A stretch of DNA of 38,039 nucleotides from a virus. Positions 5,091 to 38,024 of this stretch are shown here, piece by piece. The notes below the pieces were generated by a model. It did no database searches and was not told the origin of the DNA. It saw nothing but the letters and a program-made list of their open reading frames with translations. The position numbers and the translations under genes are program-made. Location of the stretch: positions 1 through 38,039 of the IMG/VR virus record IMGVR_UViG_3300044577_000012; one strand, given 5' to 3'. Each line of letters starts with the position of its first letter. Position 1 is the first letter of the stretch.

Positions 5091-5408
5091 GTGGACGAAA
5101 ATGTAATAAGATTAAGTGTGCCAATAGAAAGGGAAGTCAATGACAAACTTTTAGCGTTGCTTCCTTGGGGTGTCAAGGCACAAGTTATTAGAAGTCTTAT
5201 AAAGTTGTTTATTGACACTCAAATCGAGCACGGAGAAAATAGATGGATTGCAGAAGATCTTATAAAGGGTCGTTGTAAGCTCGTTGTTCAAATTTTGAAC
5301 GTCCCTGATAATGTATTAACAGCCTGTGATAAATGCGGAGGTCCACTTCATGCAACGAAAGATGGTGGATGGGAATCTGCATTTTGTCCAAAATGTGATA
5401 AAGAATAA
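5091..5408 (+). CDS. RHH-type DNA-binding protein with C-terminal zinc finger
   Basis: The 105-residue product starts with IRLSVPIEREVNDKLLALLPWGVKAQVIRSL-type sequence: a strand, a helix, the PWGVK turn and a second helix, a pattern I recall from short phage RHH-like proteins. The C-terminus has CDKC and CPKC (near residues 83-86 and 99-102), a zinc ribbon. The start is GTG, supported by AAAGGA seven bases upstream. The coding sequence holds one of the four copies of the GTTCAAATTTTGAAC palindrome at 5286-5300, so self-regulation is possible. It is the second candidate reader of those sites. Confidence 0.65.
   Translation: MDENVIRLSVPIEREVNDKLLALLPWGVKAQVIRSLIKLFIDTQIEHGENRWIAEDLIKGRCKLVVQILNVPDNVLTACDKCGGPLHATKDGGWESAFCPKCDKE
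5286..5300. repeat. GTTCAAATTTTGAAC palindrome, copy 1 (intragenic)
   Basis: A perfect 7+1+7 inverted repeat inside the RHH/zinc-finger gene, in the frame GTT CAA ATT TTG AAC. It is identical to the copies at 18127, 26269 and 38010 and is the only one on the early arm. Its position within a putative DNA-binding gene suggests autoregulation by roadblock or a stoperator-type role. Confidence 0.7.
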
Positions 5409-5461
5409 AAAGAATTGTGCAATGCAGCATTTAGTAATTTTAAGAAATTCGGAATTTTAAT

Positions 5462-5713
5462 ATGAAAGTTAGATTTATTGGTGGAACTGCTGCTGGTAAA
5501 GAAGTAGTATTTCCACACGATATGCCATTTGTAAGAATGCCCATTTATCAAGAACTTTCAGACTCAATGTCAATAGAAATTGAAGAATATAAAATAGAAG
5601 TTCTAAAATTCGGAGACAGTAGAGAACAGAAATACGGTATTAATCCAAAGATATCTATTATGGACGCATTTACTGATATGTGGATTAAATATTCTGCAGC
5701 AGAAAGAAAGTGA
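5462..5713 (+). CDS. Small phage protein, unknown function
   Basis: The 83-residue product begins with a beta strand and a glycine turn, MKVRFIGGTAAGKEVVF, and ends in an amphipathic helix. GGTAAGK is not a P-loop, since it lacks the GK(S/T) ending and lies in a strand-turn-strand context. No catalytic motif is seen. Its stop overlaps the next start (GTGA), placing it in the same operon. The upstream 50 bases contain no gene and only a weak ribosome site. Confidence 0.6.
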   Translation: MKVRFIGGTAAGKEVVFPHDMPFVRMPIYQELSDSMSIEIEEYKIEVLKFGDSREQKYGINPKISIMDAFTDMWIKYSAAERK

Positions 5714-5946
5714 CTAAGCAACTTAAAGATATTTTTAAAAGCTTCACTAATATGTCAATAGAGGAGCAGTATGCCAAAATTGAGGAGGCTAGGGATAGCA
5801 GATCAATCGAACGTCCTGCTGTTGCACAACGTCGCAGGAAAAAGGAATCAAAGACTAGTGATAAGAAAAAAGATAAAGCTAGAGATCTCCTCATGAATTT
5901 AACATCAGAAGAGAAGGCTGAACTAATAGCGAAATTAAAGAAATGA
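5710..5946 (+). CDS. Small highly charged protein with conserved acidic tail
   Basis: The 78-residue product has a helical N-terminus, a lysine/arginine-rich middle (residues 40-60) and the ending LTSEEKAELIAKLKK, similar to the end of the 117-residue protein at 1074-1427. The GTG start overlaps the previous stop; an in-frame ATG at 5752 is an alternative. The basic middle suggests nucleic-acid contact and the tail a protein-docking peptide, but both are inference. Confidence 0.55.
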   Translation: MTKQLKDIFKSFTNMSIEEQYAKIEEARDSRSIERPAVAQRRRKKESKTSDKKKDKARDLLMNLTSEEKAELIAKLKK

Positions 5947-6155
5947 CTCGAAAAAAGATAGGATTTGATAAACTAAGAGAAGAATTCCATATGACTGTAG
6001 AAAAAGCAAAAGAAGATCGTAAACCAAAGTCTGAATGGGAAGAACTGATGGAGATTGAAGGTAGATTTTATAGTTGGAGCTATCTTAGTATTCAACAAGA
6101 GGAAGATATTACTTGGCTTATTAAAACATTAAAGGAAAAGATAGAAAATGAATGA
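5943..6155 (+). CDS. Small charged helical protein
   Basis: The 70-residue product is rich in Lys and Glu and predicted to be almost entirely helical, with two tryptophan-containing segments (SEWEEL, YSWSYL). No family is recognised. It overlaps both neighbours (ATGA upstream, eight bases downstream), so it belongs to the coupled operon leading to the ParB/methyltransferase gene. Confidence 0.55.
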   Translation: MTRKKIGFDKLREEFHMTVEKAKEDRKPKSEWEELMEIEGRFYSWSYLSIQQEEDITWLIKTLKEKIENE

Positions 6156-6330
6156 CAGGGATTATTTTTATATAACTGAAGATCAAGAAGTCTATATAAC
6201 ACGATCAAGAGATTCTATGTTATCTTGGCCAGAGCCTTACTATAAAATGGTTGCACAGTTATTAGATGAAGGTTTTGCTGAAATAAGTATTAAAGCTGTA
6301 CATGCTATTAATTCTAGTTGGCCTTTATAA
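6148..6330 (+). CDS. Small protein, unknown function
   Basis: The 60-residue product is aromatic-rich (DYFYITEDQEVYITRSRDS at the N-terminus) and ends in NSSWPL. It has no metal-binding or membrane segment. AAGGAAAAG lies upstream of the ATG, and the stop shares a base with the ATG of the next gene (TAATG). The N-terminal strand pair followed by a helix is consistent with a small alpha/beta fold. The role is unknown. Confidence 0.5.
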   Translation: MNDRDYFYITEDQEVYITRSRDSMLSWPEPYYKMVAQLLDEGFAEISIKAVHAINSSWPL

Positions 6331-7667
6331 TGGACATTAGTTTTATTGATCCAGATGACGTTGAAGTAGGAGAGCGATTCCGCAAAGACTATGCCCTTAC
6401 TGACGACTTCTTAGATACAGTAAGAGAAAAGGGTATCATCCAGCCAATAACTATCAATCAAAATATGGAACTGGTTGCAGGTGGCCGACGTCTGGCAGCC
6501 GTAAAGCATCTTGTTATGCCTACAATCCCTGCGATTATGCGTCAAACAGAGGATGAACTAGACTTAAGAGAATGTGAGTTCATCGAGAATTTCTTCCGAC
6601 AAGACTTAAACTGGCAAGAAAAGAATGCTTCTGTCGCCCGTATTCATGACTTAATGAAAGAGAAGCATGGTGATCACTGGACAATTCGTAAGTCAGCTGA
6701 ACTGATTGGCAGGAGTGCTGGGGGAATAGTAAGATGTTTGCAGATGCACGAAGAGGTCACTAAATTTCCAGCCCTGGCTAAGTTTGATAAAGAGGATGAA
6801 GCTGTTAAAATCTTACGTCAAATGCGAGAGAAAATGGCATCAAATATTCTTGTTGGAAAACATAAAGAGAGAGTTGAAGCATTCCACGGTGGTAATAAAG
6901 AAGAAGAAAATCTAAAAGTTATCTCTGCTATGTATGCTGAAGATCACTTCAACGTTGGTGATGCCTTCATCGGTATGCAAGAAATGGTAGATGATAAGTT
7001 GGAACCACCTATATCATTCGTCGAAGTAGATCCTCCGTATGGGATAAACTTGAAAGAGGTAAAGAAAGGTGATAAGAGTAGAAAGCTGGACAAGTACGAA
7101 GAGATTGAATCTAAAGATTATAAGGCGTTTCTCAAAAAACTTTGTGAACTCTTATATCAGACGACTCCAGCTAATACTAGGGTATGTTTCTGGTTCGGCA
7201 TTGAATGGATATCAGAAGTCAAGACTGCTCTTAGAGACGCGGGATTCAAGCTCGATCCTATCCCGTGCTTATGGACTAAGCGAGCCGGACAAACTAATAG
7301 TCCTGAGCTTTTTCTTGCACGAGCTTGGGAACCTTTCTTCATCGCGTGGAAGGGCGATGGTATCCCGATCCATAATCGAGGAAGGATTAACGTATTCGAC
7401 TTTCCTGGTGTTCCAGCAGCTCGTAAGTGGCACCCTACCCAAAGGCCGATCGAGCTCATGCAAGAAATCCTCAAGACGTTCGCGTGGGAAGGATCTATTT
7501 GTATGATACCCTTTTTAGGATCAGGCGCAACGCTTCTTGCTTGCTATAGAGAGGGAATCAATGGATTCGGATGGGAACTTAACGAAGAGAATAAACAACC
7601 ATTCCTGGCAGCAGTTGAACAAGATATTCAAGAAGTATTAAGTAATGATGGAGGAGAAAATGAATGA
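6330..7667 (+). CDS. ParB-like / DNA methyltransferase fusion
   Basis: The 445-residue protein has two parts. Residues 1-170 form a ParB/Srx-like domain with the box VAGGRRLAAVKH (49-60), the segment ENFFRQDLNWQEKNAS, and a helix-turn-helix around 118-138 (TIRKSAELIGRSAGGIVRCL). Residues 205-445 form an amino-methyltransferase with catalytic DPPY (234-237) and the SAM-binding FLGSGAT (395-401), in the order typical of N6-adenine or N4-cytosine beta-class enzymes. Such fusions occur in phages and probably protect DNA from restriction or regulate it; the target sequence is unknown. The frame extends four codons to TTG 6318, but ATG 6330, coupled to the previous stop, is preferred. No restriction gene is nearby, so it is probably an orphan methyltransferase. 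Confidence 0.85.
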   Translation: MDISFIDPDDVEVGERFRKDYALTDDFLDTVREKGIIQPITINQNMELVAGGRRLAAVKHLVMPTIPAIMRQTEDELDLRECEFIENFFRQDLNWQEKNASVARIHDLMKEKHGDHWTIRKSAELIGRSAGGIVRCLQMHEEVTKFPALAKFDKEDEAVKILRQMREKMASNILVGKHKERVEAFHGGNKEEENLKVISAMYAEDHFNVGDAFIGMQEMVDDKLEPPISFVEVDPPYGINLKEVKKGDKSRKLDKYEEIESKDYKAFLKKLCELLYQTTPANTRVCFWFGIEWISEVKTALRDAGFKLDPIPCLWTKRAGQTNSPELFLARAWEPFFIAWKGDGIPIHNRGRINVFDFPGVPAARKWHPTQRPIELMQEILKTFAWEGSICMIPFLGSGATLLACYREGINGFGWELNEENKQPFLAAVEQDIQEVLSNDGGENE

Positions 7668-7824
7668 AGATAGAGAAATAACATTGGAAGAATACTGTGC
7701 AAAATTACCAGACTTTCATGCTGTTAATAGAGAATTACAATCTTTAAGATGGAAAGAAAAACATCCACTTAGAGAATTTTGGCATCAGTGTCAATTTAAA
7801 ATTCGATTCTGGGGAAGAAAATGA
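7660..7824 (+). CDS. Small basic protein, unknown function
   Basis: A 54-residue frame starts eight bases before the methyltransferase stop, with a very strong GGAGGAG ribosome site. It begins MNEDREITLEEYCAKLPDF and ends in a tryptophan-rich basic segment (FWHQCQFKIRFWGRK). The stop overlaps the next ATG (ATGA). The strong ribosome site and the overlaps on both sides support a real gene; the function is unknown. Confidence 0.6.
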   Translation: MNEDREITLEEYCAKLPDFHAVNRELQSLRWKEKHPLREFWHQCQFKIRFWGRK

Positions 7825-8012
7825 GTGAAATAGAACCTAGTAGCTGTTCAGATGAAGATATTATACAATTCATAGAGAATGTCAAAGGTGAAGATTCTTT
7901 ACATTATAAACATAACTGGATTATAATGAGAGCTCTCAAGATTATATTCAGAGTTTTACAAACATCAGAACTACATGAAGATATGAAAGATAAATGTCTA
8001 AAAGGAGATTAA
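7821..8012 (+). CDS. Small acidic helical protein
   Basis: The 63-residue product is predicted all-helical, starting MSEIEPSSCSDEDIIQFIENV. It overlaps the preceding gene in ATGA, and AAGGAG at its 3' end serves the next gene. No motif is recognised. Confidence 0.55.
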   Translation: MSEIEPSSCSDEDIIQFIENVKGEDSLHYKHNWIIMRALKIIFRVLQTSELHEDMKDKCLKGD

Positions 8013-8013
8013 G

Positions 8014-8307
8014 ATGCAAACAACTAGACCAGAAGGTATGTCAGAGGAACTTGCTGAAATACAAGGTAAGTTAAGAAAGGAACTATTTACTGCTGACAGT
8101 AAAAAAGAATTAGAAAACGCTATGGATGAACGGCTAGAATATCTTACAAAACATAGACGAGAAGTTTTAGTCAGTAGAACACAAATAGAACCTGAGGCTA
8201 TTCCATTAGTTATAGCAGACTTTAGCGCAAAAATAATTATGGCTCATGATAGAGGGCATAGAAAAAGATTAAAGAAGGAAGTGATTAAACTAATAGAGAA
8301 GTTATGA
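8014..8307 (+). CDS. Small helical protein, unknown function
   Basis: The 97-residue product is charged and largely helical, with a strand-like VLVSRTQIEPEAIPLVIADF in the middle and a lysine-rich helix at the end. The start has a near-consensus AAGGAG. Its stop overlaps the polymerase exonuclease gene in ATGA, so it is co-translated with replication genes. No family is recognised. Confidence 0.55.
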   Translation: MQTTRPEGMSEELAEIQGKLRKELFTADSKKELENAMDERLEYLTKHRREVLVSRTQIEPEAIPLVIADFSAKIIMAHDRGHRKRLKKEVIKLIEKL

Positions 8308-9329
8308 CTTTCCTACCTGATACAAGTACTGGCCTTATTCAAGGTATAGGAAAAGCCAACGCTGACATAATGATTGTCGGTGATTGTCCTTCCGTAGCTG
8401 CTATTAAAGAACATAAGCCTATAGCTCCACCAGTTGAGACTGTATTAGAAGGATGCCTACATCAAGCTGGACTGATTAAGAGCGAGGTGTTTATAACTAA
8501 TCTTATTAAGGATGATACCAGAGTTGAGAAGTATTGGAAGGAAAGGACTAAGCAGGTCCTGCAAAATATAGATCACTATGTAAAAGTTTTAGAAGAAGAA
8601 ATAAAAAGTATTAAACCTAAAGTAATAGTTACAATGGGAGAGTTGCCATCATATGTTCTAACAGGTAACGGAGCTACAACTAAAACAAGGGGTTATCCTT
8701 TTACATATAGAGAAGATACTAGATGGAATGTCTTTAGTCCTGATCTATTTAGTATAGTCATACCTATTCTTCATCCATCCAAGATGATATGGGGTAATTA
8801 TATCTGGCGATACTATCTAAGTCATGACTTAACTAAAGCTAGGAAGTTAGCAGCAAATCCTGAGCTTTTACATAAACCAGATATAGAAACTTATATACCT
8901 GAATCATTTGAGGAAGCTAGAGTAATATTAGAGTGCTTTCTTGATGATGAAAAGTTAAGTATTGATATTGAAGTTAATAATTTTGAAGTAAGCTGTATTG
9001 GATTCGCTAACGATGTTGACTTTGCCGTATCTATTCCTATAGATATGAGATGGACAGTACAAGAAGAAGTTGAACTATGGAACGGTATTGCCAGAATTAT
9101 GGGAGACCCTGATATAATTAAGATAGGTCAGAACTTTATCTTTGATATACAATTTCTAGCTCAGAAAATGAATATCATAACTCGTGGCCCTATCATAGAT
9201 ACAATGATGAGTCACAGTATATTATATCCGGACTTTCTTAAATCATTAAACTTTCTAGCAAGTATACATACGATGCAACCACGATGGAAAGATATGGTTA
9301 GCTTTAAAGATATTAAAGAGGATAGCTGA
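8304..9329 (+). CDS. DNA polymerase A, N-terminal part: UDG-like domain plus 3'-5' exonuclease motifs I and II
   Basis: Residues 20-175 of 341 look like a uracil-DNA-glycosylase superfamily domain (IMIVGDCPS, FITNLIK, VIVTMGELPSYVLTG, ILHPSKMI), probably without glycosylase activity since the usual catalytic loop is not clear. Residues 200-320 carry the proofreading exonuclease: motif I Asp221-x-Glu223 in SIDIE, and motif II Asn277 to Asp281 in GQNFIFD. The exonuclease stops before motif III, which lies at the start of the gene at 9584. The frame is closed by TGA directly before a small unrelated gene. The two proteins presumably assemble to form the full polymerase. UDG-like N-terminal domains occur in some phage family A polymerases. 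Confidence 0.8.
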   Translation: MTFLPDTSTGLIQGIGKANADIMIVGDCPSVAAIKEHKPIAPPVETVLEGCLHQAGLIKSEVFITNLIKDDTRVEKYWKERTKQVLQNIDHYVKVLEEEIKSIKPKVIVTMGELPSYVLTGNGATTKTRGYPFTYREDTRWNVFSPDLFSIVIPILHPSKMIWGNYIWRYYLSHDLTKARKLAANPELLHKPDIETYIPESFEEARVILECFLDDEKLSIDIEVNNFEVSCIGFANDVDFAVSIPIDMRWTVQEEVELWNGIARIMGDPDIIKIGQNFIFDIQFLAQKMNIITRGPIIDTMMSHSILYPDFLKSLNFLASIHTMQPRWKDMVSFKDIKEDS

Positions 9330-9330
9330 T

Positions 9331-9579
9331 ATGAAATATAGAAAGAAACCAATTGAAGTAGAAGCCTTCCGATGGAATGGAACTGCTGAGTCACATAATT
9401 GGTTACGGGAATGGACTAATGGAAAGGTAAATCTTGTTACAGAGGGTAGGCTTCAGGTATTAACTTTAGAGGGTGCAATATATGCGTCAGTTGGTGATTG
9501 GATTATTAAGGGTATACAAGGTGAGTTCTATCCATGCAAGCCTGATATATTTAAGAAAACTTATGAATTAAGTCTATAA
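9331..9579 (+). CDS. Small conserved phage protein inserted inside the polymerase gene
   Basis: The 82-residue product begins MKYRKKPIEVEAFRWNG and ends GDWIIKGIQGEFYPCKPDIFKKTYE, a pattern I recall from a widespread phage and prophage protein of unknown function, found in many genomic positions. Here it sits between the two halves of the DNA polymerase, one base after the stop of the first half and four bases before the ATG of the second. It has a good AGAGGAT ribosome site. It has no homing-endonuclease motif and no intein or intron sequence around it, so it looks like cargo that split the polymerase rather than a self-splicing element. Confidence 0.8.
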   Translation: MKYRKKPIEVEAFRWNGTAESHNWLREWTNGKVNLVTEGRLQVLTLEGAIYASVGDWIIKGIQGEFYPCKPDIFKKTYELSL

Positions 9580-9583
9580 TAAT

Positions 9584-11104
9584 ATGACCTACCGAACGTC
9601 AGATGAAATGCTAACTTACAATGCCCTCGACTGTGCGGGTACATGGCAATGCGCTGACTCATTCTTCTCTGAGATAGAGGATGGATACCGAGAGACATAC
9701 GATCATACTATCTCCTTATACGGTCCTCTGATCTACATGATGACTCGTGGTATTAGAGTAGATCATGATAAGTTAGCTAAAGTTAAGAAGGAAGTAGATA
9801 GGCAGTTACTAAGCTTGGAAGAACAAATAACTGAACGCTGCGGCAGATGGGTTAATCCATTATCTCCTAAAGACTGTCAAACATACTTTTATATCGAAAA
9901 GAAAATACCACCATATACTAAGTATAGTAAACAAACCGGTAAGAGTTCTATCACGACTGATGATAAAACCTTACAACGTATAACTAGAGGTACATCAGCA
10001 CGCAAGGGCTTATTTGAAGCAAAGCTCATGCAAGACTACAGACGACTTAAAAAGCTAAAAGGAACATACTTAGACATAGTCTTTGATACCGATAGTAGGA
10101 TGCGTTGTAATTATAAGCCTCGCGGAACTAAGTTCGGACGCCTATCGAGTACTAAGACAATCTTCGGAACTGGTATGAATATGCAAAATCTGCCAGAAGC
10201 TTTTCTCGGTTTTCTTATTGCGGATCTAAATTGCATATTCATAGAATTAGATTTACGTAGGGCTGAATGGGTAGTAGTGGCTTATGACTCAGGCGATGCT
10301 AATATGCTTCATGCTATTAAGACTGATTTAGATGTACATTCTTATACAGCTAGTCAAATGTTTGGAATACCTATTGAAGCTGTTAAGTTTGAAGATAAGA
10401 TATTAGGTCATATTGGTGACCCAGAAGAAATAAAAAAGAAACGCCCATTGATAAAGGAGCTTGATACTTATAAGGATAACTGGATGCCACGCACAATGTC
10501 TATGCGGCAATGTGGAAAGAAATCAAATCACGGGTTGAACTATGGAGAAGGAAAAAAGAAATTTGCACTCGATAACGAGATCACAGAAAAGGAAGCTGAG
10601 GTTGTTGTTGAAAGATATCACGGAATCTATCCTGGTATTAGACGAAACTACGAGCGAATACAAACTCAGCTCGGAACCGATCGCACTCTCACTAATTGTT
10701 TCGGACGGAAATGCCGCTTTCTTGATAGATGGAACGACGACCTCTTCAAGTCAGCTTATAGTTTCAATTCGCAAAGTACCGTGGGGGAGATTATCAATAG
10801 AGGGATGGTGTCAATCTATAATTCAGAGGATACAGCACTTGCTGATTGGGAGATTCTCAGACAAGTCCATGACTCCATTAATTTTCAAGCACCTACTAGA
10901 CACGCCAATAAACTCGCTATCGGAATTCGAACTGCCGCAAGAGACCTTTCGCCAAGCCTTACAGCGTCTGGCCGTGAGTTCACGATCGCCGTCGATTGCA
11001 AAATCGGATACTCCCTCGACAGAATGAAAGAAATAGAAATCACTGATACAAGCACACTGACTAAGTCTATAGAGAGAGCTATCAGTGAGCTTAAGGAGAC
11101 TTGA
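9584..11104 (+). CDS. DNA polymerase A, C-terminal part: exonuclease motif III plus polymerase domain
   Basis: The 506-residue product opens with exonuclease motif III, Tyr12 to Asp16 in TYNALDC, which completes the proofreading domain begun at 8304. The polymerase follows: FGRLSS (184-189), motif A Asp223 and Glu228 in LDLRRAEW, motif B Arg308, Lys312 and Tyr320 in RQCGKKSNHGLNYG, and motif C His429-Asp430 in QVHDS. Aligning motif B with E. coli Pol I puts His316 at position 762, where Phe, Tyr or Leu is usual. Motif C reads HDS instead of the common HDE. No strong ribosome site precedes the ATG, so translation is probably coupled to the small gene upstream. It is the main replicative enzyme. 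Confidence 0.9.
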   Translation: MTYRTSDEMLTYNALDCAGTWQCADSFFSEIEDGYRETYDHTISLYGPLIYMMTRGIRVDHDKLAKVKKEVDRQLLSLEEQITERCGRWVNPLSPKDCQTYFYIEKKIPPYTKYSKQTGKSSITTDDKTLQRITRGTSARKGLFEAKLMQDYRRLKKLKGTYLDIVFDTDSRMRCNYKPRGTKFGRLSSTKTIFGTGMNMQNLPEAFLGFLIADLNCIFIELDLRRAEWVVVAYDSGDANMLHAIKTDLDVHSYTASQMFGIPIEAVKFEDKILGHIGDPEEIKKKRPLIKELDTYKDNWMPRTMSMRQCGKKSNHGLNYGEGKKKFALDNEITEKEAEVVVERYHGIYPGIRRNYERIQTQLGTDRTLTNCFGRKCRFLDRWNDDLFKSAYSFNSQSTVGEIINRGMVSIYNSEDTALADWEILRQVHDSINFQAPTRHANKLAIGIRTAARDLSPSLTASGREFTIAVDCKIGYSLDRMKEIEITDTSTLTKSIERAISELKET

Positions 11105-15934: not shown

Positions 15935-15936
15935 AC

Positions 15937-17275: not shown

Positions 17276-18112
17276 TCACGTGTTAATTGTAGTGGATCTG
17301 TCTGCACCAGCGAAGGAACTGAGAATATTAGTTAAGAATCCCTCAGTACCAGGTAGTGCTGTAACTACATTTTCAACTGCACCAACGTTTAGAGATTGGA
17401 GAAGCTGTTGAATTTGCGTATCATCTAGACCAGCCTCAGCCAAGAATTGCTGAAATTCCCTACTGACATTTCTCTCTGCAAGTCCTGTCTGACCTTCACC
17501 AGCTTGTAATAAGGATAAGAGTTCATTAGTATCTCCTCTGCCAACAGCATCAATTCCTGGTGCTATACCAAGTGCTGATAAGGCTCTATCTCTATTTGCT
17601 TGATCTGCTCGGAAACTAATATCAGCTCTACTTCTAGTTAATCCAGTTAGTAAATCTTCTCTAGCTTCAGCATCTGCTTGTTGTCTTTCTGAACCAAAGA
17701 AGTTAGAACCTCCAAAATCTCTACCTATTGCTGGCAGAACTGTCTCTTCAAAACTTTTAAGTGCTGGATCACGAACGGTAGTATTGAAGAACTCATCAAC
17801 ACCTGCCTGCTGTCCTTCAAAATCAAGCAACTTTAATAAGGTATCAGTTGAAGCATTGAATATATCACTCTCTCTATTTGGATCAGATAAAGCTAATGCT
17901 CTTTCTTCTAAACCAGCTAAACTAAGTTGAGAAAGATCAGATGGAGCAACATTAACATCTCCACTAAATCGCCTCTCCTCACCAGCACCAGATCCGGTAG
18001 TAAGTTGATTCAGAAGTGCCTCAAGTGAGTTTTGCTGTTGTGGACTAAGAGTTGATAAAGTCTGAGTCTCTACACTTGGCTTACTTCCAAAGAGAAAATC
18101 TAAGAATGCCAT
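17276..18112 (-). CDS. Probable virion internal/ejection protein with hydrophobic N-terminus
   Basis: The 278-residue product begins MAFLDFLFGSKPSVETQTLSTLSPQQQ, a start I recall from phage internal virion proteins, followed by Gln/Leu-rich helices. The ATG has GAGG eight bases upstream. Fourteen bases upstream of the start lies a GTTCAAATTTTGAAC palindrome, so this gene may open a separately controlled block that includes the two larger ejection-type genes after it. No enzyme motif is visible. Confidence 0.6.
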   Translation of the reverse strand: MAFLDFLFGSKPSVETQTLSTLSPQQQNSLEALLNQLTTGSGAGEERRFSGDVNVAPSDLSQLSLAGLEERALALSDPNRESDIFNASTDTLLKLLDFEGQQAGVDEFFNTTVRDPALKSFEETVLPAIGRDFGGSNFFGSERQQADAEAREDLLTGLTRSRADISFRADQANRDRALSALGIAPGIDAVGRGDTNELLSLLQAGEGQTGLAERNVSREFQQFLAEAGLDDTQIQQLLQSLNVGAVENVVTALPGTEGFLTNILSSFAGADRSTTINT

Positions 18113-18126: not shown

Positions 18127-18141
18127 GTTCAAATTTTGAAC
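18127..18141. repeat. GTTCAAATTTTGAAC palindrome, copy 2
   Basis: A perfect copy in the 33-base gap between the tail hub candidate and the first ejection-protein gene, 14 bases before the start codon at 18112. It would overlap or flank the promoter or leader of the ejection block. No good -35/-10 pair is visible around it, so it may act as an operator on readthrough transcription or at the RNA level. Confidence 0.75.
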
Positions 18142-18145: not shown

Positions 18146-19936
18146 CTAGTTTTCTGTTTCCAATGATACTCGTATATTAAACCAACTAAGAGAGAAAGCA
18201 CTAGAACCTTCTATCTTATATCTTATCGAACGACCAACAAACTGTTTCTCCAATCTAACCTTCATTGGAGTAGTTCCTATTGTTACAACCTCTAGAATAT
18301 TAAACGTAATGCCTTCATCTGTTGAATAGGAAACTGTAATAATACCGCTAGTACCTTTAAGTTCTAAATAATCATGCCTAAGATTTCCATTAGGATGAGA
18401 AAAATCTGGAGTTTCTAATGTAAAGGTCTTAGCGTTTCCATCATCATCAGCAGTTATAAAATCATACTCTTCAACCTGACCATCAGTAGCACATAACAAT
18501 AACGTTTTTGATACAGTAACAACAGCGGCAGAGTTCCATAAAAGAGTTTGATCATCCCAATTACCTGGTATATCATTCCATGAGAAAGCTGTACTATCAA
18601 CTGCTTCGCCAAATCCCTGAACAGTATCGAAAAACTCTCTTGTAGACCAAACACCGCCAAGATCGCCATGCCACCTTAAACATTTATCAGGAAAAGTTCC
18701 AGCACCAGTTTGATAGAATATAAGAACGTCATTCTTATCCTTTACATAAACGCAGAAGAGTCTATTAACTTTATCATCAGCCATTTCAGCTTGAACACCA
18801 AATAGTAAATCTTCTACATTCTCTCCAATCTCTTGAAAATCAAATCCACCTTTGTAGATATAAATCTTATTCTGACCGACAACAAGATGTCTATCTCCTA
18901 TATCTGCAAAACCTCCAGAAGATATGATACCTTGAGCTGTTACCATTGTATCCCATTGAAATCTACTAAGCGCGTTATTTGTTATGGCTCCTCTAACTAT
19001 ACTTCCACTTCTATATACAACTAAATGAGGGCCTAACTTACGTGCCTGTCTAACATCATCAGATGAATCTAAAAGATCTATAAATCCAGAATCCCCTGTT
19101 GTCCAATTAGTATAGTCAGCTTTATCACTCCATCTAACACGTTGATTAAAGTTTGATCCACCCTCTATCGTTTTAATTAAGAAAAGAGATGAATCAAAAA
19201 GAGCTATACTTTCACAAATAGTATCTCCAGAACTAGGAAGATTCTGAACAAGTTTAATAGTTGCTGATATAGTATCATAGTAATGAGGTTTATCTATACC
19301 ATTTGTAAAAGTAAGTTCATCATTCCACGGAACAGTTATTGCAAATACTTGCTTATCATCTGTACCAGCTAACTTAACAATCTCTATACATGAATTTCCA
19401 GATGTTGCTTGAACACCAGCTCCAGGTACTGCATCATCTATTGTAATAGAGACGCCAGCTGAAACTGAAGCTATAGTACTTATATGATCTGAACCATCGT
19501 CTAGTCTAAGAGCAATCCTATCGCCCGTAGCAAAGTTAGTAGTAACTGCTACTGGAATAACTGTATCTGTTCCACTTACGTTAGCATCAATAGTAGTATT
19601 TTCGCCACCATCTAGAAGAACTCCATGCCAATTAGCTTCACTATTAGCCAAGACATAGAAACTAAGATTAGATATGGCAAAAGTACTAGCTGTTCCACTA
19701 GCCGTAATATGCTGATGGATATTTCTAAAGGTTCCAGGAACTCCAGATGGAATATCGGCAAAATCAGCATAACCTGTATCTTTCTTTATATCATTTTTAT
19801 CGTATATGAGATTATTAAGCTGCAGAAATTCATTATCCCGCATTGACTCCGTATTGGAGTTTAAATTCAAACCACCTAATAAGGATGGTACTGTTTTATT
19901 TATCCAATCTTCTCCAGTTAAATCAAGCTCGCCCAT
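18146..19936 (-). CDS. Tail hub / DNA-stabilisation protein candidate (beta-rich)
   Basis: The 596-residue product is almost entirely beta-strand with repeated strand-turn units and aromatic-Gly patterns (TNGIDKPHYYD, RFQWDTMVTAQGI, KIYIYKGGFDF), consistent with a propeller-like fold. Proteins of this size and composition in P22-like phages plug the tail after packaging (gp10 type). The position before the ejection genes fits. It begins in a TAATG overlap with the previous frame. No enzymatic motif is seen. The assignment rests on fold impression and position. Confidence 0.6.
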   Translation of the reverse strand: MGELDLTGEDWINKTVPSLLGGLNLNSNTESMRDNEFLQLNNLIYDKNDIKKDTGYADFADIPSGVPGTFRNIHQHITASGTASTFAISNLSFYVLANSEANWHGVLLDGGENTTIDANVSGTDTVIPVAVTTNFATGDRIALRLDDGSDHISTIASVSAGVSITIDDAVPGAGVQATSGNSCIEIVKLAGTDDKQVFAITVPWNDELTFTNGIDKPHYYDTISATIKLVQNLPSSGDTICESIALFDSSLFLIKTIEGGSNFNQRVRWSDKADYTNWTTGDSGFIDLLDSSDDVRQARKLGPHLVVYRSGSIVRGAITNNALSRFQWDTMVTAQGIISSGGFADIGDRHLVVGQNKIYIYKGGFDFQEIGENVEDLLFGVQAEMADDKVNRLFCVYVKDKNDVLIFYQTGAGTFPDKCLRWHGDLGGVWSTREFFDTVQGFGEAVDSTAFSWNDIPGNWDDQTLLWNSAAVVTVSKTLLLCATDGQVEEYDFITADDDGNAKTFTLETPDFSHPNGNLRHDYLELKGTSGIITVSYSTDEGITFNILEVVTIGTTPMKVRLEKQFVGRSIRYKIEGSSAFSLSWFNIRVSLETEN

Positions 19937-25871: not shown

Positions 25872-26249
25872 CTATTCAGTTACCGCTTCGCTTTTACCTT
25901 TACCTTTTACTTTATCTTTAGCAACCTTCAACATTGCTTCTAAGAGTTTAACACTCTTACTTTCGGCTTTCCTTGCAAGATTTTGAAGACGCTTATCTTC
26001 TTTTTTATGAAAATTCTCATCATCCTTGATATTCTTAGCAGCTTCTCTTGCTTTAGCTTCTCTGGCCATTGCATGACGTTTTACATTATGAGCCCCTCTT
26101 TTTCCTCGATACTCACGTGCAAGTAAGTTCTCTGCAATAGCTAAATTCCTCGGAGATACTCCTACTAAAGAATCTAACTCAACAGTAACTTTATGTTTCG
26201 TCGGCCAGAATCGTATAATCGCTGTCGCTGTCGGCTTTTCGTTACTCAT
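25872..26249 (-). CDS. Basic helical protein, likely scaffold- or capsid-associated
   Basis: The 125-residue product has a beta-rich start (ATAIIRFWPTKHKVTVELDSL) followed by a long, very basic and Ala-rich helical region (ARKAESKSVKLLEAMLKVAKDKVKGKGKS). It could bind nucleic acid or scaffold. The start lies 19 bases after a GTTCAAATTTTGAAC palindrome, so it opens the scaffold-capsid block. No family is recognised. Confidence 0.55.
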   Translation of the reverse strand: MSNEKPTATAIIRFWPTKHKVTVELDSLVGVSPRNLAIAENLLAREYRGKRGAHNVKRHAMAREAKAREAAKNIKDDENFHKKEDKRLQNLARKAESKSVKLLEAMLKVAKDKVKGKGKSEAVTE

Positions 26250-26268: not shown

Positions 26269-26283
26269 GTTCAAATTTTGAAC
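26269..26283. repeat. GTTCAAATTTTGAAC palindrome, copy 3
   Basis: A perfect copy in the 38-base gap between the FmdB-like gene and the basic protein that precedes the scaffold, 19 bases before the start codon at 26249. It marks the boundary between the terminase-portal block and the capsid block. Confidence 0.75.
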
Positions 26284-26287
26284 GCAA

Positions 26288-26590
26288 CTACATATCATCT
26301 TCAATCCACTTAGATATAAGTCCACGTTCACCTAGCCATTCACTGGCATGTACTTTGTCCGTAAACTTCTTATCCACGCCATGTGGAGTAGGAAGCTGTA
26401 TTTCATTCCCCGTCGCTGGGAACGGCTCTTTTGATATAACCATCGAAGGAGCCTTAAAAACCTGTTTCATTGTTCCCGGACATTTGTTACCGCAAAGAAT
26501 TCCGGGAGATATAATATCTTCATGTTGAGATATAGGACATCCTATTGTAAGTTCTTTTTCGCATACATCACATCTCATATCATATAACAT
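26288..26590 (-). CDS. FmdB-like zinc-ribbon protein
   Basis: The 100-residue product starts MLYDMRCDVCEKELTIGCPI with CDVC at residues 7-10 and a later CGNKC, then the segment KQVFKAPSMVISKE. Short zinc ribbon followed by a basic strand is the FmdB pattern, common as a small gene near phage portal genes with no known biochemical role. It begins in a TAATG overlap with the portal stop. Confidence 0.65.
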   Translation of the reverse strand: MLYDMRCDVCEKELTIGCPISQHEDIISPGILCGNKCPGTMKQVFKAPSMVISKEPFPATGNEIQLPTPHGVDKKFTDKVHASEWLGERGLISKWIEDDM

Positions 26591-31060: not shown

Positions 31061-31062
31061 AG

Positions 31063-33814: not shown

Positions 33815-34047
33815 CCAGCTAATCCCCCACCCTCACCTACTAATCCGCCAAGATTAGCTAATCCACCATGCTGCACTAAGCTAAGCACAGAACCTCCACC
33901 TACAGGAGGGGACAGCACAGTTCCAGCATAAGATTCACCAGTAGCATGTCTCCAACTTTCACTAATGGCCTCAGACATCTTGCCACGCAAATATACTCTG
34001 CCAACACCAACAACTGAAGCACGCTTAATTCTAGTATCAATAGCCAT
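33811..34047 (-). CDS. Small conserved appendage-module protein, copy 1
   Basis: The 78-residue product starts MAIDTRIKRASVVGVGRVYLRG and ends in a Gly/Leu-rich tail (LVQHGGLANLGGLVGEGGGLAG). The N-terminus is a paralogue of that at 32424-32666, while the C-terminal half differs. It is coupled by overlap to the genes on both sides. Function unknown. Confidence 0.6.
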   Translation of the reverse strand: MAIDTRIKRASVVGVGRVYLRGKMSEAISESWRHATGESYAGTVLSPPVGGGSVLSLVQHGGLANLGGLVGEGGGLAG

Positions 34048-34886
34048 TATAGACCCGTTATCATCTTAGCTTCGCTGTAATCTCCAGCAGAGTCTGTTAA
34101 AGCCTTCTTAGTTATAACTGTACCAGCATCATTATGAACTTCTAAGAAATCTGCTCCGGAGGTAGTTACATCTAGTTTATTTCTTAAAGCCATATACATA
34201 AGCATTACTGCATCACGTAGCCCTGGAGTTGCAGAAGGAACACCTTGTGCAATTTCTGTTAAAGCTGTATCAAGAGCATTATCAACTTCAGTATTAACCT
34301 GCGCTGTTGAGATGTTATTAAGTGCTGCTACAGTTGCCTCAAGAGCTAATGTGTCAAGAATAAGATCAAGTCTGCCACCATTAATCCAGTCAGTTAATGC
34401 ACCCATCCTAGCAACAGTAACTTCATTCGTATTAGCGAGTTTAGTATCCAGATCAAGACCTCCAGCATCAGATATCGGTAGACCAAGAGCGGCATCTGCA
34501 GCTGCGTTTGGAAGTGCTGTCAAGCCTAATCTCACTCCATCTTCTGGGTCAAAATCAACTAATTGAATTGTCTGTGGGAGAACTATCATTCCAGTTACTG
34601 TACCTTGAATACTAACAGTTTCAGCCCCTGTAGCTACAGCAGCATCTGGAAGATCAAGTCTATAGTATCCATGACCTATCTCTAAGAAACCCCCATCTGC
34701 ATGAGCTGTAGTTAGTGCTGCTAAGGTTGCTTCGGTTATATCAACAACTGCAGCTCCTTCTCGTCTATACTCTAAATCCATGCCCGCAGTATTAAATAAT
34801 ACCCCTAGCTCTGGCGTACCGTCTGTTGAGTCTATGATATAAACATCAACTGAAACATTAATACTACCTTTTAAAACTTGTCTCAT
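34047..34886 (-). CDS. Beta-rich appendage protein, copy 1 of duplicated C-terminal domain
   Basis: The 279-residue product has an N-terminal domain starting MRQVLKGSINVSVDVYIIDSTDGTP with LEIGHGYYRLDLPDAAV near residue 70, and a C-terminus (LRDAVMLMYMALRNKLDVTTSGADFLEVHNDAGTVI) shared with the 301-residue protein at 32909-33814. Shared end, different front, is usual for virion appendages that use a common trimerisation or attachment module. It overlaps both neighbours in ATGA or one base. Confidence 0.6.
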   Translation of the reverse strand: MRQVLKGSINVSVDVYIIDSTDGTPELGVLFNTAGMDLEYRREGAAVVDITEATLAALTTAHADGGFLEIGHGYYRLDLPDAAVATGAETVSIQGTVTGMIVLPQTIQLVDFDPEDGVRLGLTALPNAAADAALGLPISDAGGLDLDTKLANTNEVTVARMGALTDWINGGRLDLILDTLALEATVAALNNISTAQVNTEVDNALDTALTEIAQGVPSATPGLRDAVMLMYMALRNKLDVTTSGADFLEVHNDAGTVITKKALTDSAGDYSEAKMITGL

Positions 34887-35461
34887 GATGCTCTCATATA
34901 TGCTGGAATGATATGTCTACGAATATCACCAGCTGGTGGTGTAGGAAAAGGATAATCGTTTGTTTGATCCGGTACGATTGTAAACGAACTATTACCATGT
35001 CCAGTACCTGCAAATGTCCAAATTACATAGACTCTATCAGTTAAAGCCGCTCCAGTATCTTCTGTTACGGTAATTGCGCGAGATAAGGTTTGTGCAGAAC
35101 TAATACTTAATCCAATACCGGTTTCACTACCATAAGTTGATTGAGATACTCCAGACGAATTTACTCGACATATGTGGCATTCTTCAAGTGTAACAGCACC
35201 ATTACCAACAGATATTCTACACTTAACATTAGCTGTACCACCCGCCCAAGTAGTTTCATTAACTGCTTCAGTTTCATCACCCCATACAACTACATTACCT
35301 TCTGTATTACCGATTGTTACTACTTGTCCTGTAACACCGACACTGCCTCCTATCTCACTCTGACAATCATCAGGAGTTTTACTAGTAAGTGCTGAAGGAG
35401 CGCACTTAGACGCTATAGCATGGGCAGCAGCAGTATCAGTCTGGACAAAATTCTGTGTCAT
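34883..35461 (-). CDS. Virion appendage protein, unknown
   Basis: The 192-residue product is beta-rich and polar, with Thr, Ser, Gly and Val (VGVTGQVVTIGNTEGNVVVWGDETEAVNETTW), and four cysteines in two pairs (SKCAPS, DDCQS, NVKCRI, EECHICR). It begins in an ATGA overlap with the preceding gene. The composition and position suggest a fibre or appendage domain. No family is recognised. Confidence 0.5.
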   Translation of the reverse strand: MTQNFVQTDTAAAHAIASKCAPSALTSKTPDDCQSEIGGSVGVTGQVVTIGNTEGNVVVWGDETEAVNETTWAGGTANVKCRISVGNGAVTLEECHICRVNSSGVSQSTYGSETGIGLSISSAQTLSRAITVTEDTGAALTDRVYVIWTFAGTGHGNSSFTIVPDQTNDYPFPTPPAGDIRRHIIPAYMRAS

Positions 35462-35823
35462 ACTGGACTTTCATTACGAATTGCTACATAAGCTACTCGA
35501 TCCATTATCTTATCAGTAGTCCATCTTCCATTAATAATAACGGGATTTTTGTAATTTTGTCTAATCTTTTCCTCAGTATCTATTTCTCCATAACGACTCT
35601 GACCAAAGAGGGGATTACCGTTTTCATCTTCATATAGAAAATAATAATCTACTCCCTGCATCATACGACCAGTATTATTATTGTTATACAATCTAACAAC
35701 TAATACATCGTCGTTTTGAAATCTACCGACTAAGTTTTTCCAATCAGAAACAAAATCAATACCTGATTCTTTTATAGTTTCATCAGTATAGTGTATTCTA
35801 AAAGCTACAACGGACTGTATCAA
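35458..35823 (-). CDS. Small virion-region protein, unknown
   Basis: The product (about 121 residues) has SVVAFRIHYTDETIKESGIDFVSDWKN and later VVRLYNNNNTGRMMQGVDYYFLYEDENG, a mixed alpha/beta sequence without recognised motif. There is no ATG near the front. TTG at 35823, overlapping the previous stop in TTGA and preceded by AGGA at a fitting distance, is the likeliest start; a TTG at 35829 is possible. Confidence 0.5.
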   Translation of the reverse strand: MIQSVVAFRIHYTDETIKESGIDFVSDWKNLVGRFQNDDVLVVRLYNNNNTGRMMQGVDYYFLYEDENGNPLFGQSRYGEIDTEEKIRQNYKNPVIINGRWTTDKIMDRVAYVAIRNESPV

Positions 35824-36347
35824 GGACAAATTCCTACATCTAAGGCAAAAGCACGATCTTGGAGTGTTTCAAATAGCGATCCATCTGGTACACTTAAGAT
35901 TCCACCTTCATCATTTCCAGATAAAACACTTCGTTCAAATCCTGATGGTGCTTCAGGAAAGAATGTACTAACTGCTATTGTAGTTGCATCACCATCACTA
36001 AGTCTAAATCTTTGTCCGAAACCTGGTGATTTTTGATACTGAGCTATACGCATAGCTTCACGACCTCCAACATTAGGAAAATACTTTAAAGCATACTCAT
36101 CACGACCTGAAATAATCGTAGTTCCAGTAAATCCTTGTGTAGTATATTTTAGTTTAAACATAATAATCTCTAACCCATCAATATCTGCATCAATATCAAT
36201 AACTTGAGACCATTGCACATTACGAACTACTAAATCATCTGGATCAGTTTCGGCTGGATCATAGTAGATCGCGGCAACACACGGTAATTCAGCAAAAGTT
36301 GGAACTGACATTAATAATAGTACTAATGTTGTTATTAGAGTCTTCAT
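35820..36347 (-). CDS. Secreted phage protein with Sec signal peptide
   Basis: The 175-residue product starts MKTLITTLVLLLMSVPTFA, a classical signal peptide with a Lys, a hydrophobic core and an Ala-x-Ala-like site after residue 19, followed by a mature part with beta-rich sequence (IIMFKLKYTTQGFTGTTIISGRDEYALKYF). It has no lipobox. The mature chain has two Cys, near the start and end, which could pair in the periplasm. A perfect AGGAGG ribosome site and a hairpin (36359-36378) precede the ATG. Export during a late-gene programme suggests a periplasmic task, such as superinfection exclusion or envelope interaction; this is inference. Confidence 0.6.
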   Translation of the reverse strand: MKTLITTLVLLLMSVPTFAELPCVAAIYYDPAETDPDDLVVRNVQWSQVIDIDADIDGLEIIMFKLKYTTQGFTGTTIISGRDEYALKYFPNVGGREAMRIAQYQKSPGFGQRFRLSDGDATTIAVSTFFPEAPSGFERSVLSGNDEGGILSVPDGSLFETLQDRAFALDVGICP

Positions 36348-36351
36348 AATA

Positions 36352-36378
36352 ACCTCCTAGATGATACAAAAATCATCT
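36352..36378 (-). promoter_or_regulatory. Hairpin plus perfect Shine-Dalgarno before the secreted protein
   Basis: On the minus strand AGATGAT (36378-36372) can pair with ATCATCT (36365-36359), ending just before AGGAGG (36357-36352). The hairpin could stabilise the mRNA end or keep the ribosome site open. The gap from 36348 to 36394 contains no other gene. Confidence 0.5.
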
Positions 36379-36394
36379 TCATAAAAAAGATAAA

Positions 36395-36694
36395 CTATAC
36401 AACGAAAGCGTTAATAGATTCTGAACCACCACCACCGGCTACATTTATTCGCTGATATCTAGCTCTATGTTCTATGTTTATAACCTTATCAGCTGTTATT
36501 GCATCAGCATCTGCTACATCATAAAACGTAACGTTATCGTTTGATATTTGATACTTAACAGTCGCACCATTAAAGGTACCAGTAACAAATAAAGTTCTTA
36601 AATGACTAGCTGCTGTATGGCCGTATCTACTAATCTCTATCGCTGTAGAGTTGCCATTTGCCTGGGCAGTCGCAATTTGGACTTCATCGGTCAT
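36395..36694 (-). CDS. Small beta-rich virion protein candidate
   Basis: The 99-residue product has a beta-sandwich-like composition (STAIEISRYGHTAASHLRTLFVTGTFNGATVKYQISNDNVTFYDV), and ends GGGGSESINAFVV. The segment resembles small phage head or tail surface proteins. It overlaps the terminase small subunit candidate upstream. No catalytic residues. Confidence 0.55.
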   Translation of the reverse strand: MTDEVQIATAQANGNSTAIEISRYGHTAASHLRTLFVTGTFNGATVKYQISNDNVTFYDVADADAITADKVINIEHRARYQRINVAGGGGSESINAFVV

Positions 36695-37190
36695 CTTTAG
36701 TTCCTACATTGACTTGAATATGAGAATCCTTAATCGAGACTCCCTTGAAAATTCGTTCTACTACATCTTCTGCACTCTCAACTGAACTAACTTCAGCACC
36801 TATACTATCCTTAAGTTTGGTGTATTTATCAACAGCTGTTAGACGCTCCCGTATAGATACTTTATCATCCATACCTTCTCGCACAGCGTTAATAGCCTTA
36901 CCAGCAAGAGCATCTAATTCTAACTGACGATCTGAGAAGATACGAGATATAATTATCTTAACAAGAGGATCATTAAGCACTCGAGAAACTGTCACACCAC
37001 GGACGTGCATTCTCTTAGCTATATCCTCTCCACGTATACCTTCTACGTGCATAGAGATCATAGCTAAATGTCTATTGCTTAATTTCTTAAGTTTTCTTGC
37101 CCCATTCGCCCGACGGATGCCAGTACGTTTTTCACTCTCGTAAAGAGTAAGAGCTTGCTCGGAAGGATCTAGTTGAGATAAGAAAGTCAT
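36684..37190 (-). CDS. Terminase small subunit candidate
   Basis: The 168-residue product has a central helix-turn-helix at about residues 53-75 (RGEDIAKRMHVRGVTVSRVLNDP) and a helical C-terminal part with TAVDKYTKLKDSIGAEVSS, a layout found in terminase small subunits, which recognise the packaging site and form a ring. Its place near the start of the late arm fits, although the large subunit is 5.6 kb away. A transcription regulator is the alternative. Confidence 0.6.
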   Translation of the reverse strand: MTFLSQLDPSEQALTLYESEKRTGIRRANGARKLKKLSNRHLAMISMHVEGIRGEDIAKRMHVRGVTVSRVLNDPLVKIIISRIFSDRQLELDALAGKAINAVREGMDDKVSIRERLTAVDKYTKLKDSIGAEVSSVESAEDVVERIFKGVSIKDSHIQVNVGTKDDR

Positions 37191-37657
37191 TCTTTCTTCT
37201 CCGTTGTTTCTTCTTGCTTTTTCTCAGTTCCTTCTGTCATTGCTCTTAATATAAACTGTCTAAGGAAGCCTTGAGCAGCTCTTTCTTTCTCTCTTTCAGC
37301 TGTTATTGAAGTTTTAAGAGGTTTACCATTCGCAGCATCTATTACTGCTTGAGTTAATCTTTCTATATCAGGGTTTAAACTTTTCGCAGCAGCTTGTACC
37401 GATTTTTGTCTATTAAGAAATATAGATTCATTTTCAGCACCTGTTCCTATACGCAAAAGTTCTTCCATTGTTGGCATTTTCTGTTTTGATCTATTCCTAA
37501 GCATTATACCTTCAAGAAGATCTCTGACACCACTCTTACTAAGCTTCAACTTATCTTCAGCAGTTAATCCAAGGACACCATGCTTAAGACTAGCAGCAGT
37601 TCCAATCTTACCTCTGCCTACATTAACAAGTGTATCTGCATGACCTTCGAATGGCAT
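37187..37657 (-). CDS. Helical phage protein, unknown function
   Basis: The 156-residue product starts MPFEGHADTLVNVGRGKIGTAASLKHGVLGLTAEDKLKL and ends in a Glu/Lys-rich tail. It is predicted mostly helical. No motif is recognised. It overlaps the terminase small subunit candidate in ATGA and may be part of the packaging apparatus. Confidence 0.55.
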   Translation of the reverse strand: MPFEGHADTLVNVGRGKIGTAASLKHGVLGLTAEDKLKLSKSGVRDLLEGIMLRNRSKQKMPTMEELLRIGTGAENESIFLNRQKSVQAAAKSLNPDIERLTQAVIDAANGKPLKTSITAEREKERAAQGFLRQFILRAMTEGTEKKQEETTEKKE

Positions 37658-37806
37658 TACTTCTTTCCTTTCTTCTTTCTAAGAGGTTTACCAGTCTTAA
37701 AACTTTGATTCGTAGATTTCTGACAAGTAGCAATAGCTCTTCCTTTTTCTACACCTTTAGATACTAATAAGTCTACACAACGATGAACTTTTGTGCCTTT
37801 CGGCAT
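37657..37806 (-). CDS. Small basic protein
   Basis: A 49-residue frame starts in an ATGA overlap with the previous gene and ends in TAATG with the next. It reads MPKGTKVHRCVDLLVSKG with a later CQKSTNQSFKTGKPL and a Lys-rich end. I recall this pattern from small proteins in many phage genomes. The perfect coupling on both sides supports it. The function is unknown. Confidence 0.65.
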   Translation of the reverse strand: MPKGTKVHRCVDLLVSKGVEKGRAIATCQKSTNQSFKTGKPLRKKKGKK

Positions 37807-38000
37807 CAGCTATCACCGCAAACCTTTTGACCACAACCAGTACAGTTATAACAACCAGAAATCTTATCTAACTTACTTTCAGAGCCACAAGACTCACAGA
37901 TAATTACAAGGCGTAAATCTTTATCTTCTAATGCTATACGAATACGCTTACTTTCTTCATCAGTCAGAGCTCCATCCCATAATCTTTCAATATCTGTCAT
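37806..38000 (-). CDS. Small protein ending in an NrdJ-like zinc tail
   Basis: The 64-residue product has six cysteines, Cys35, 38, 50, 53, 56 and 61, in the order CxxCG, GCxxCxxCG, CG. This is the same layout as the C-terminal zinc tail of B12-dependent (class II) ribonucleotide reductases. The reductase core itself is not present. It is the first gene of the late arm, with a GTTCAAATTTTGAAC palindrome nine bases upstream of its ATG. It may be a regulator or simply a zinc ribbon that converged on this pattern. Confidence 0.65.
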   Translation of the reverse strand: MTDIERLWDGALTDEESKRIRIALEDKDLRLVIICESCGSESKLDKISGCYNCTGCGQKVCGDS

Positions 38001-38009
38001 AAGCTAATC

Positions 38010-38024
38010 GTTCAAATTTTGAAC
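38010..38024. repeat. GTTCAAATTTTGAAC palindrome, copy 4
   Basis: A perfect copy just upstream of the first late gene, nine bases before its ATG. If the window closes into a circle, the site would lie in the divergent control region between the early and late arms, with the interlocked repeats at 26-72 on the other side. Confidence 0.75.

Follow-up and report, generated by a model that had tools for sequence, protein, structure and literature searches.

What reads a 15-bp palindrome that recurs four times in the viral contig IMGVR_UViG_3300044577_000012 (analysed over its full length of 38,039 nucleotides and called the window here), and what purpose might its scattered copies serve? A sequence-only reading had proposed operators or stoperators at the starts of late gene blocks, bound by one of two RHH-type proteins or by a ParB-like methyltransferase fusion. 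Exact search of the window confirms the four identical copies that it had described, and its distances of 14, 19 and 9 bases to downstream start codons are correct as well.

Palindromic sites in the window and in related phages

The four copies, none of which is assigned to a strand, are:

5286..5300: putative parS-like site 1, GTTCAAATTTTGAAC, within ORF 5091-5408; the ParB-methyltransferase gene lies 1.0 kb downstream
18127..18141: putative parS-like site 2, in its full 17-bp form TGTTCAAATTTTGAACA, in the gap separating 17276-18112 from 18146-19936
26269..26283: putative parS-like site 3, in the gap separating 25872-26249 from 26288-26590
38010..38024: putative parS-like site 4, close to the contig end and ahead of the first late gene

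GTTCAAATTTTGAAC is a 7-1-7 inverted repeat in which 14 of the 15 bases are paired around an unpairable centre, which is T on the + strand in all four window copies. From base composition, about 1e-4 exact copies would be expected in 38 kb, whereas four are present; with up to three mismatches allowed, the window contains 9 strand-matches versus 1.8 expected from shuffles, and 9 is attained in none of 100 shuffles. The four sites score 26-30 bits, compared with 7.0 for the best additional near-site. They were set by hand rather than taken from the automatic palindrome search because that search selects codon-repeat palindromes in the window, and four should be regarded as a minimum for this phage, since the contig appears to be incomplete at its 38039/1 junction when compared with the related genome G003. 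Megablast of the late arm of the window against GenBank gave no match.

In related phages, palindromes were searched automatically with an EM script. Nearly all virus contigs that have the window's ParB-DNA methyltransferase gene in common possess a dispersed odd palindrome of 15-17 bp with one unpaired centre and letters of its own, e.g., GTTCAAAnTTTGAAC, GTCCCAAnTTGGGAC, GTAACAAnTTGTTAC, TGGGGAA..TTCCCCA, or TGTTTCATCATGAAACA, among others, and OP947158 carries the 17-mer TGTCCCAAnTTGGGACA. The half-site of TGTTTCATCATGAAACA is the same as that of bacterial parS, and the half-site of G042, TGTTTCA, is that of canonical parS. At least four sites are found in 39 of the 41 longer contigs of the main set that encode the fusion, and three in the 29-kb genome G036. 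An odd geometry was best in 36 of 42 genomes, and the even-centred 16-bp parS layout that is a hallmark of ParABS systems is not that of this family. Phages devoid of the fusion (PaMx41, Tiera, and Kuura) yielded repeats in coding regions only and none in intergenic ones. Genomes G049 and G052 encode the fusion and show no clear palindrome, G010 has five palindrome copies and no detectable ParB domain, and in the Microcystis phage Mel-JY34, which possesses a distant fusion, the best palindrome is coding and no clear set of sites was recognized. Site-bearing related contigs differ widely in G+C.

The ParB-methyltransferase fusion as candidate reader of the sites

The fusion gene of the window comprises the following features:

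6330..7667, + strand: ParB-DNA methyltransferase fusion of 445 aa, proposed reader of the sites (Pfam and AlphaFold2)
6330..6602, + strand: predicted ParB CTPase-fold domain, residues 1-91 (box II GGRR, box III ENxxR)
6684..6764, + strand: predicted helix-turn-helix, residues 119-145 (model helices 119-126 and 130-145; covariation with site letters)
6717-6719, + strand: codon of residue 130, start of the recognition helix
6795..6797, + strand: codon of residue 156, which covaries with the innermost half-site base (ParB residue 201 equivalent by offset)
6924..7634, + strand: predicted β-class N6/N4 methyltransferase domain, residues 199-435 (DPPY and PFxGSG motifs)

An alternative TTG start exists at 6318. 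Pfam matches of the fusion are ParB_N (PF02195, E 2.2e-10) and N6_N4_Mtase (9e-16), and its AlphaFold2 model has a pLDDT of 87.5. Because Foldseek and VIA matches of the full model were mostly methyltransferases, the ParB part was folded alone for structure comparison; it matches CTP- or CDP-bound ParB structures (VIA Z 14.0 for 7bnk and 13.7 for 6sdk), and the HMMER alignment of the fusion to 6t1f extends through the helix-turn-helix. Among 32 fusion sequences, residues G51, R53, R54, E86, and N87 of the CTP-binding boxes are invariant and R90 is nearly so. A ParB_N fold, CTP boxes and a central helix-turn-helix would place the fusion in the ParB/Noc clamp family, with nucleotide binding predicted, and nucleotide hydrolysis may differ from canonical ParB, given that box II reads GGRR in place of GERR. 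The methyltransferase domain matches M.BceJIV (VIA Z 23.4) and CcrM (23.3), its motif residues D234-Y237 and G397-G399 are invariant in the 32 sequences, and, as judged from its DPPY and FxGxG motifs and its modelled fold, the fusion is a β-class N6/N4 DNA methyltransferase. ParA (AAA_31, PF13614) was detected in none of 30 records, whereas 14 of 14 control genomes were positive. A 2025 survey already lists ParB-N6_N4_Mtase fusions as enriched in phages; of the 28 ParB-fold proteins purified there, only 11 bound a nucleotide, and the methyltransferase fusions reported as binders took ATP (PMC12704722).

A scan of 412 fusion columns against 8 half-site bases gave its six strongest associations for residues 156, 129, 130, 131 (twice), and 120 (z 8.2-5.0; next 4.4), all of which sit in the helix-turn-helix or where the next helix begins; for Sak4, used as control in the same genomes, the peak was 5.6 versus 6.8. 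Among residue-base pairs chosen after this MI scan, His130 occurs only with G3 (7/7), Gln130 only with A3 (3/4), Asp129 only with G5 (4/4), and Arg120 only with G2, G067 being an exception to the base-3 rule. A tree of the methyltransferase domain shows five changes each for G3 and His130, which are associated in every independent pair, although such pairs are few on the starred branches (2-5 per trait). Fusion residue 130 aligns with R173 of Caulobacter ParB and residue 156 corresponds, by offset in the structural match to 6t1f, to ParB residue 201; in ParB and Noc, the variable bases of parS and NBS are read by residues 173 (outer) and 201 (inner) (PMC7383237). For the held-out contig L331 (DQSTLSK, R120) the code predicted G2, A3, and G5, and the palindrome found there, TGATGATTaAATCATCA (k=9), has all three bases as named. 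As site letters and recognition helix covary and the held-out prediction was correct, it is highly likely that the ParB fusion reads the palindromic sites. This singles out one of the three binders proposed earlier and leaves the two RHH-type ones unsupported, and it upholds, as a prediction from sequence, the view that the palindromes form a real set of protein-bound sites.

An operator or stoperator set for an RHH-type small protein (99-719 or 5091-5408) is, in comparison, very improbable. Site 1 does lie within ORF 5091-5408, as had been described, and sites occur in or beside relatives of this ORF in G003, G034, and G033. However, BLAST relatives of 5091-5408 and of 99-719 exist in only 5 and 3 of 13 core genomes, respectively, whereas the palindromes are family-wide, their letters follow the ParB recognition helix, and their placement (see below) is not operator-like. 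The label "RHH/zinc" given to 5091-5408 is plausible by eye; in Pfam this ORF had no match above cut-off, its zinc-ribbon matches all being below the cut-offs. When 99-719, 999-1427, and 5091-5408 were scanned against PHROG and Pfam, no DNA-binding family scored above cut-off. A "transcriptional regulator" of a Desulfofustis phage (OP947158, 2296-2838) was considered as reader and dropped, as no domain was found.

Even less credible, to the point of being nearly negligible, is recognition of the sites by a transcription factor of the host, whether LexA-like or not. Some LexA boxes resemble the GTTC/GAAC half-sites; on the other hand, the letters vary from one related phage to another in step with a phage protein and across very different G+C. 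A search of the literature on LexA-type motifs found no GTTC-N7-GAAC motif.

Placement and spacing of the sites

Of 395 sites in 39 related genomes, 293 fall between genes versus 30.3 expected, and spacing is over-even, with a Stouffer z of -11.4 versus uniform and of -8.6 and -13.3 versus distinct-gap nulls, pooled values that overstate independence as the genomes are related. Divergent, promoter-bearing gaps contain 20 sites versus 48 expected by length and 15.5 by count, convergent gaps contain 17 versus 15 expected, and in long tandem gaps sites lean slightly toward the upstream stop codon. The operator or stoperator role is therefore not supported, since divergent gaps show no enrichment of sites, convergent gaps show no depletion, and spacing is even. 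In relatives with the flanking genes retained, two of the three late-arm positions gain or lose their site: G003, G008, and G036 lack one at the 18127 junction, and at the 26269 junction G034 and G003 have a site and G008 has none. Loss of sites with flanks kept had been named beforehand as an outcome that would speak against an operator. The apparent location at starts of late gene blocks arises because intergenic gaps are the only free space.

A KorB-like control, in which the ParB-methyltransferase would load at the sites and mainly silence phage promoters at long range, maybe with a KorA-like clamp-stalling partner, seems rather unlikely. KorB, a CTPase clamp of the ParB family, represses promoters as distant as 1.5 kb from its operator (PMC11790492). 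Both sequence (8qa8, E 1.6e-7) and fold (8qa9, Z 11.5) give matches to KorB structures, RHH-like small proteins adjoin sites in some members, and the site upstream of the fusion gene is closer than chance (median 1.2 kb versus 2.5 kb), which could point to autoregulation of this gene. The gap counts, including the lean toward upstream stop codons, do not show KorB-type promoter-tied sites, a test softened by the fact that KorB-type silencing acts from distal sites too, so that position does not suffice to dismiss such control. Against it stand also the even spacing, which would not be expected of operators, the invariant methyltransferase motifs, which would be needless in a pure silencer, and the lack of a universal KorA-like partner.

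A possible clamp-loaded methyltransferase and its relation to known systems

The best model, which we consider moderately likely from sequence, is that a ParB clamp loads at evenly placed parS-like sites and takes a methyltransferase with it along the phage genome. Each phage's own fusion would recognize the 15-17 bp palindromes through its helix-turn-helix; at every site the CTPase-fold domain would form a closed clamp and then slide off, by analogy with ParB, Noc, KorB, and VirB, and DNA passed by the clamp would be modified by the methyltransferase fused to it. Evenly spread loading sites would thus allow the whole phage genome to be covered, and the purpose of such methylation might be protection from restriction or self-marking. 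That a processive enzyme of relaxed specificity would in this manner mark only DNA with the right loading sites, distinguishing self from host, is a further suggestion, which falls somewhat short of probable. If true, co-infecting phages would be prevented from sharing protection by the rapid divergence of the loading code.

Even genome-wide spacing also fits a coating role of any kind, with the clamp stripping host nucleoid silencers, condensing DNA for packaging or blocking nucleases, and VirB, a CTP switch resembling ParB, counteracts H-NS (PMC10770331). However, every member examined has a fused methyltransferase whose catalytic motifs are intact, and we judge it unlikely that its activity would be secondary to coating.

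For loading of a methyltransferase-bearing clamp, chromosomal ParB-parS and Noc-NBS are among the closest parallels in having a ParB CTPase-fold domain, a helix-turn-helix and palindromic sites, which in Noc-NBS are dispersed as in these phages, and the phage fusion has counterparts of the specificity residues 173 and, by offset, 201. In contrast to the 8-8 layout of parS, the phage sites are 8-1-8, with one extra central base, and their letters differ phage by phage; compared with ParB-parS, no ParA was found and the C-terminal part is replaced by the methyltransferase. KorB-OB of plasmid RK2 likewise pairs a clamp of the ParB family with operators scattered across a mobile element, and the OB core TTTAGCSGCTAAA is odd-centred like the phage sites, whereas the latter are not promoter-linked, the phage clamp is fused to a methyltransferase, and no KorA equivalent was identified.

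The ParB-N6_N4_Mtase phage fusions of the 2025 survey (phrog_498 with ParB families) have the same domain fusion; its accessible part describes no sites, whereas cognate candidate sites and a specificity code are identified here (PMC12704722). Our literature search found no reported cognate sites for phage ParB-methyltransferases, and dozens of these fusions are now paired with candidate DNA sites. The amino-acid/base code extends the experimentally established ParB/Noc switch to many natural specificities, making both the role of phage ParB fusions and the evolution of ParB specificity testable, and diverse orthogonal ParB/site pairs might be of practical use, for example in labelling DNA loci.

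Stoperators of mycobacteriophage L5 are similar in being short sites dispersed in short intergenic gaps. They are asymmetric and oriented with transcription, a pattern not seen here, where the phage sites are near-perfect palindromes, evenly spaced and present in convergent gaps too.

A dispersed palindrome in the window and in related phages

An exact 15-mer search of the window bears out the claim of the sequence-only reading that GTTCAAATTTTGAAC occurs there in four exact copies (5286-5300, 18127-18141, 26269-26283 and 38010-38024), against about 1e-4 copies predicted from composition. The repeat is inverted, of the form 7-1-7, its central base having no pairing partner, and it is dispersed over one virus record of 38,039 bases with two gene arms:

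Early arm, + strand: exonuclease, Sak4-like annealing protein, ParB-DNA methyltransferase fusion (ParB-MTase), split DNA polymerase A, primase/helicase
Late arm, - strand: portal, terminase, major head protein

DNA polymerase A of the window occupies two genes, 8304-9329 and 9584-11104, with a small ORF (9331-9579) between them; it is split in several relatives also and is a single gene in OP947158, G001, and G018 (G numbers denote the virus contigs compared). Two small core proteins, 999-1427 and 5710-5946, present in 9 and 6 relatives, respectively, resemble each other in their C-terminal helix and in the lysine-rich stretch that precedes it.

An exact scan of IMG/VR gave mostly single matches, which are probably due to chance, plus contigs with many copies. 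Copies within one mismatch of GTTCAAAnTTTGAAC number 12, 10, 8, 7, and 9 in the whole records of G001, G002, G003, G009, and G020, respectively, in none of which the reversed pattern was found, and G018 contains about 20 copies of the wider form GTTC-N7-GAAC. The common feature of these contigs and the window is the early core (exonuclease, Sak4, ParB-MTase, polymerase, primase); their virion genes are not alike. G041 has six sites, every one made of hybrid half-sites (TTTCAAAnTTTGAAC) and differing from the window palindrome by a single mismatch, which is identical and on one side in each copy.

Desulfofustis phage OP947158, which is closest to the early core among GenBank relatives, lacks GTTCAAA sites and carries dispersed GTCCCAAnTTGGGAC arranged likewise. 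Relatives were gathered by an IMG/VR search with a ParB-MTase alignment, and whole records were scanned for dispersed palindromes without restriction on geometry. Almost all members carry a palindrome particular to themselves, among them TGTACCAAnTTGGTACA, TGTAACAAnTTGTTACA, TGATCAAAnTTTGATCA, TGTTTAAAnTTTAAACA, TGGGGAA..TTCCCCA, TGGTTAAAnTTTAACCA, TGATACA..TGTATCA, and TGTTGATTaAATCAACA. The palindrome of G042, TGTTTCATCATGAAACA, has the same half-site as bacterial parS, TGTTTCAC, with one additional central base. Odd geometry is best in 36/42 genomes versus 24/42 in codon-block shuffles, and real palindrome scores far exceed shuffled ones in most genomes. In PaMx41, Tiera, and Kuura, which have the primase alone in common, the scan gave coding repeats only.

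A clear odd palindrome was not found in G049 and G052, where ParB-MTase is present; in G052, a set of GGTGAATATTAACC copies (k=8) lies between genes and looks even. Two contigs without detectable ParB_N also carry repeated sites:

G010 (33% GC; no core genes in common): five TGTTCAAAaTTTGAACA-like copies, four intergenic, near 6116, 16946, 17794, 22327, 28344
G004 (79 kb): even palindrome GATTTCCGGAAATC, about 10 times, e.g., at 1823, 6652, 53838, 58909, 58973, 62101; layout similar to the Noc-type site

Placement of the sites

Intergenic sites make up 293 of 395 in 39 genomes, where 30 are expected. Such pooled statistics are inflated by relatedness of the genomes, most of which are metagenomic and some of which are partial. 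Spacing (median 3.8 kb) is evener than uniform placement (p<0.05 in 26/39 genomes) and evener than a random choice of distinct gaps. In tandem gaps of at least 60 bp, sites are shifted toward the upstream stop codon.

Operators are expected to cluster in divergent gaps and to avoid convergent ones. The operator set proposed by the sequence-only reading is not supported by the distribution over tandem, convergent, and divergent gaps, 244:17:20; the expectation is 218:15:48 if gaps are weighted by length and 251:14:15.5 if they are counted equally. At syntenic junctions, sites are gained or lost: the 18127 site is missing in G003, G008, and G036, and the 26269 site is retained in G003 and G034 and missing in G008. 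The pattern is that of a site density maintained wherever coding sequence leaves space.

The probable reader protein and its residue-base pairings

The fusion, very probably the reader of the sites, joins a beta-class methyltransferase to a ParB part made up of a CTPase-fold domain and a helix-turn-helix (HTH) of ParB type. Mutual information between each of 412 fusion columns and each of eight half-site bases in 45 genomes singles out residues 156, 129, 130, 131, and 120. His130 pairs exclusively with G3 (7/7), Gln130 exclusively with A3 (3/4), Asp129 exclusively with G5 (4/4), and Met131 with A4 (3/3), and Arg120 is seen with G2 only. When mapped on a tree built from the methyltransferase part alone, G3 has five origins and so does His130, together each time. 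Common ancestry accounts for part of the background and not for the clustering of associations in the HTH, because the Sak4 control from the same genomes peaks at 5.6 versus 6.8 for the fusion.

The counterpart of residue 130 in Caulobacter ParB is R173 by alignment, and residue 156 would correspond to ParB 201 if the match to structure 6t1f is free of gaps over its final nine aligned residues. In ParB/Noc, G1 is read by R173, A1 by Q173, and base 6 by 201 (Jalal et al., PMC7383237); the phage pairings keep this geometry from the site centre (6 versus 6.5 bp and 1 versus 1.5 bp). For the held-out contig L331, G2-A3-G5 was predicted and TGATGATTaAATCATCA was found; sites of held-out L210 and G061 agree with the code, and that of G067 does not. 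‘DNA methylase’ genes of Wolbachia phage WO (GenBank H32-H36, H39, H43) are about 22% identical to ParB-MTase in alignments that cover as much as 90% of it.

Candidate functions of the sites

The ParB-N6_N4 methyltransferase fusion is a known domain architecture, enriched in phages and lacking an assigned function (PMC12704722). In a limited literature search, no description of the cognate sites of such phage proteins was found. We file phage sites and fusion with the ParB-parS kind, as a variant of it. A classical partition role seems unlikely, since ParA was not found. The best fit appears to be that a sliding ParB clamp is loaded at the sites. How ParB clamps work from sites scattered over a mobile element is shown by KorB (PMC11790492). 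Such a clamp would load at the sites, slide, and deliver methylation via the fused methyltransferase; the universally intact methyltransferase domain suggests methylation as its output. The evidence throughout is sequence and predicted structure, from which site binding, use of a nucleotide, clamp sliding, and DNA methylation are all predictions. Upstream of the fusion gene, a site tends to lie no more than about 1.2 kb away, which may reflect autoregulation or preferential loading there.
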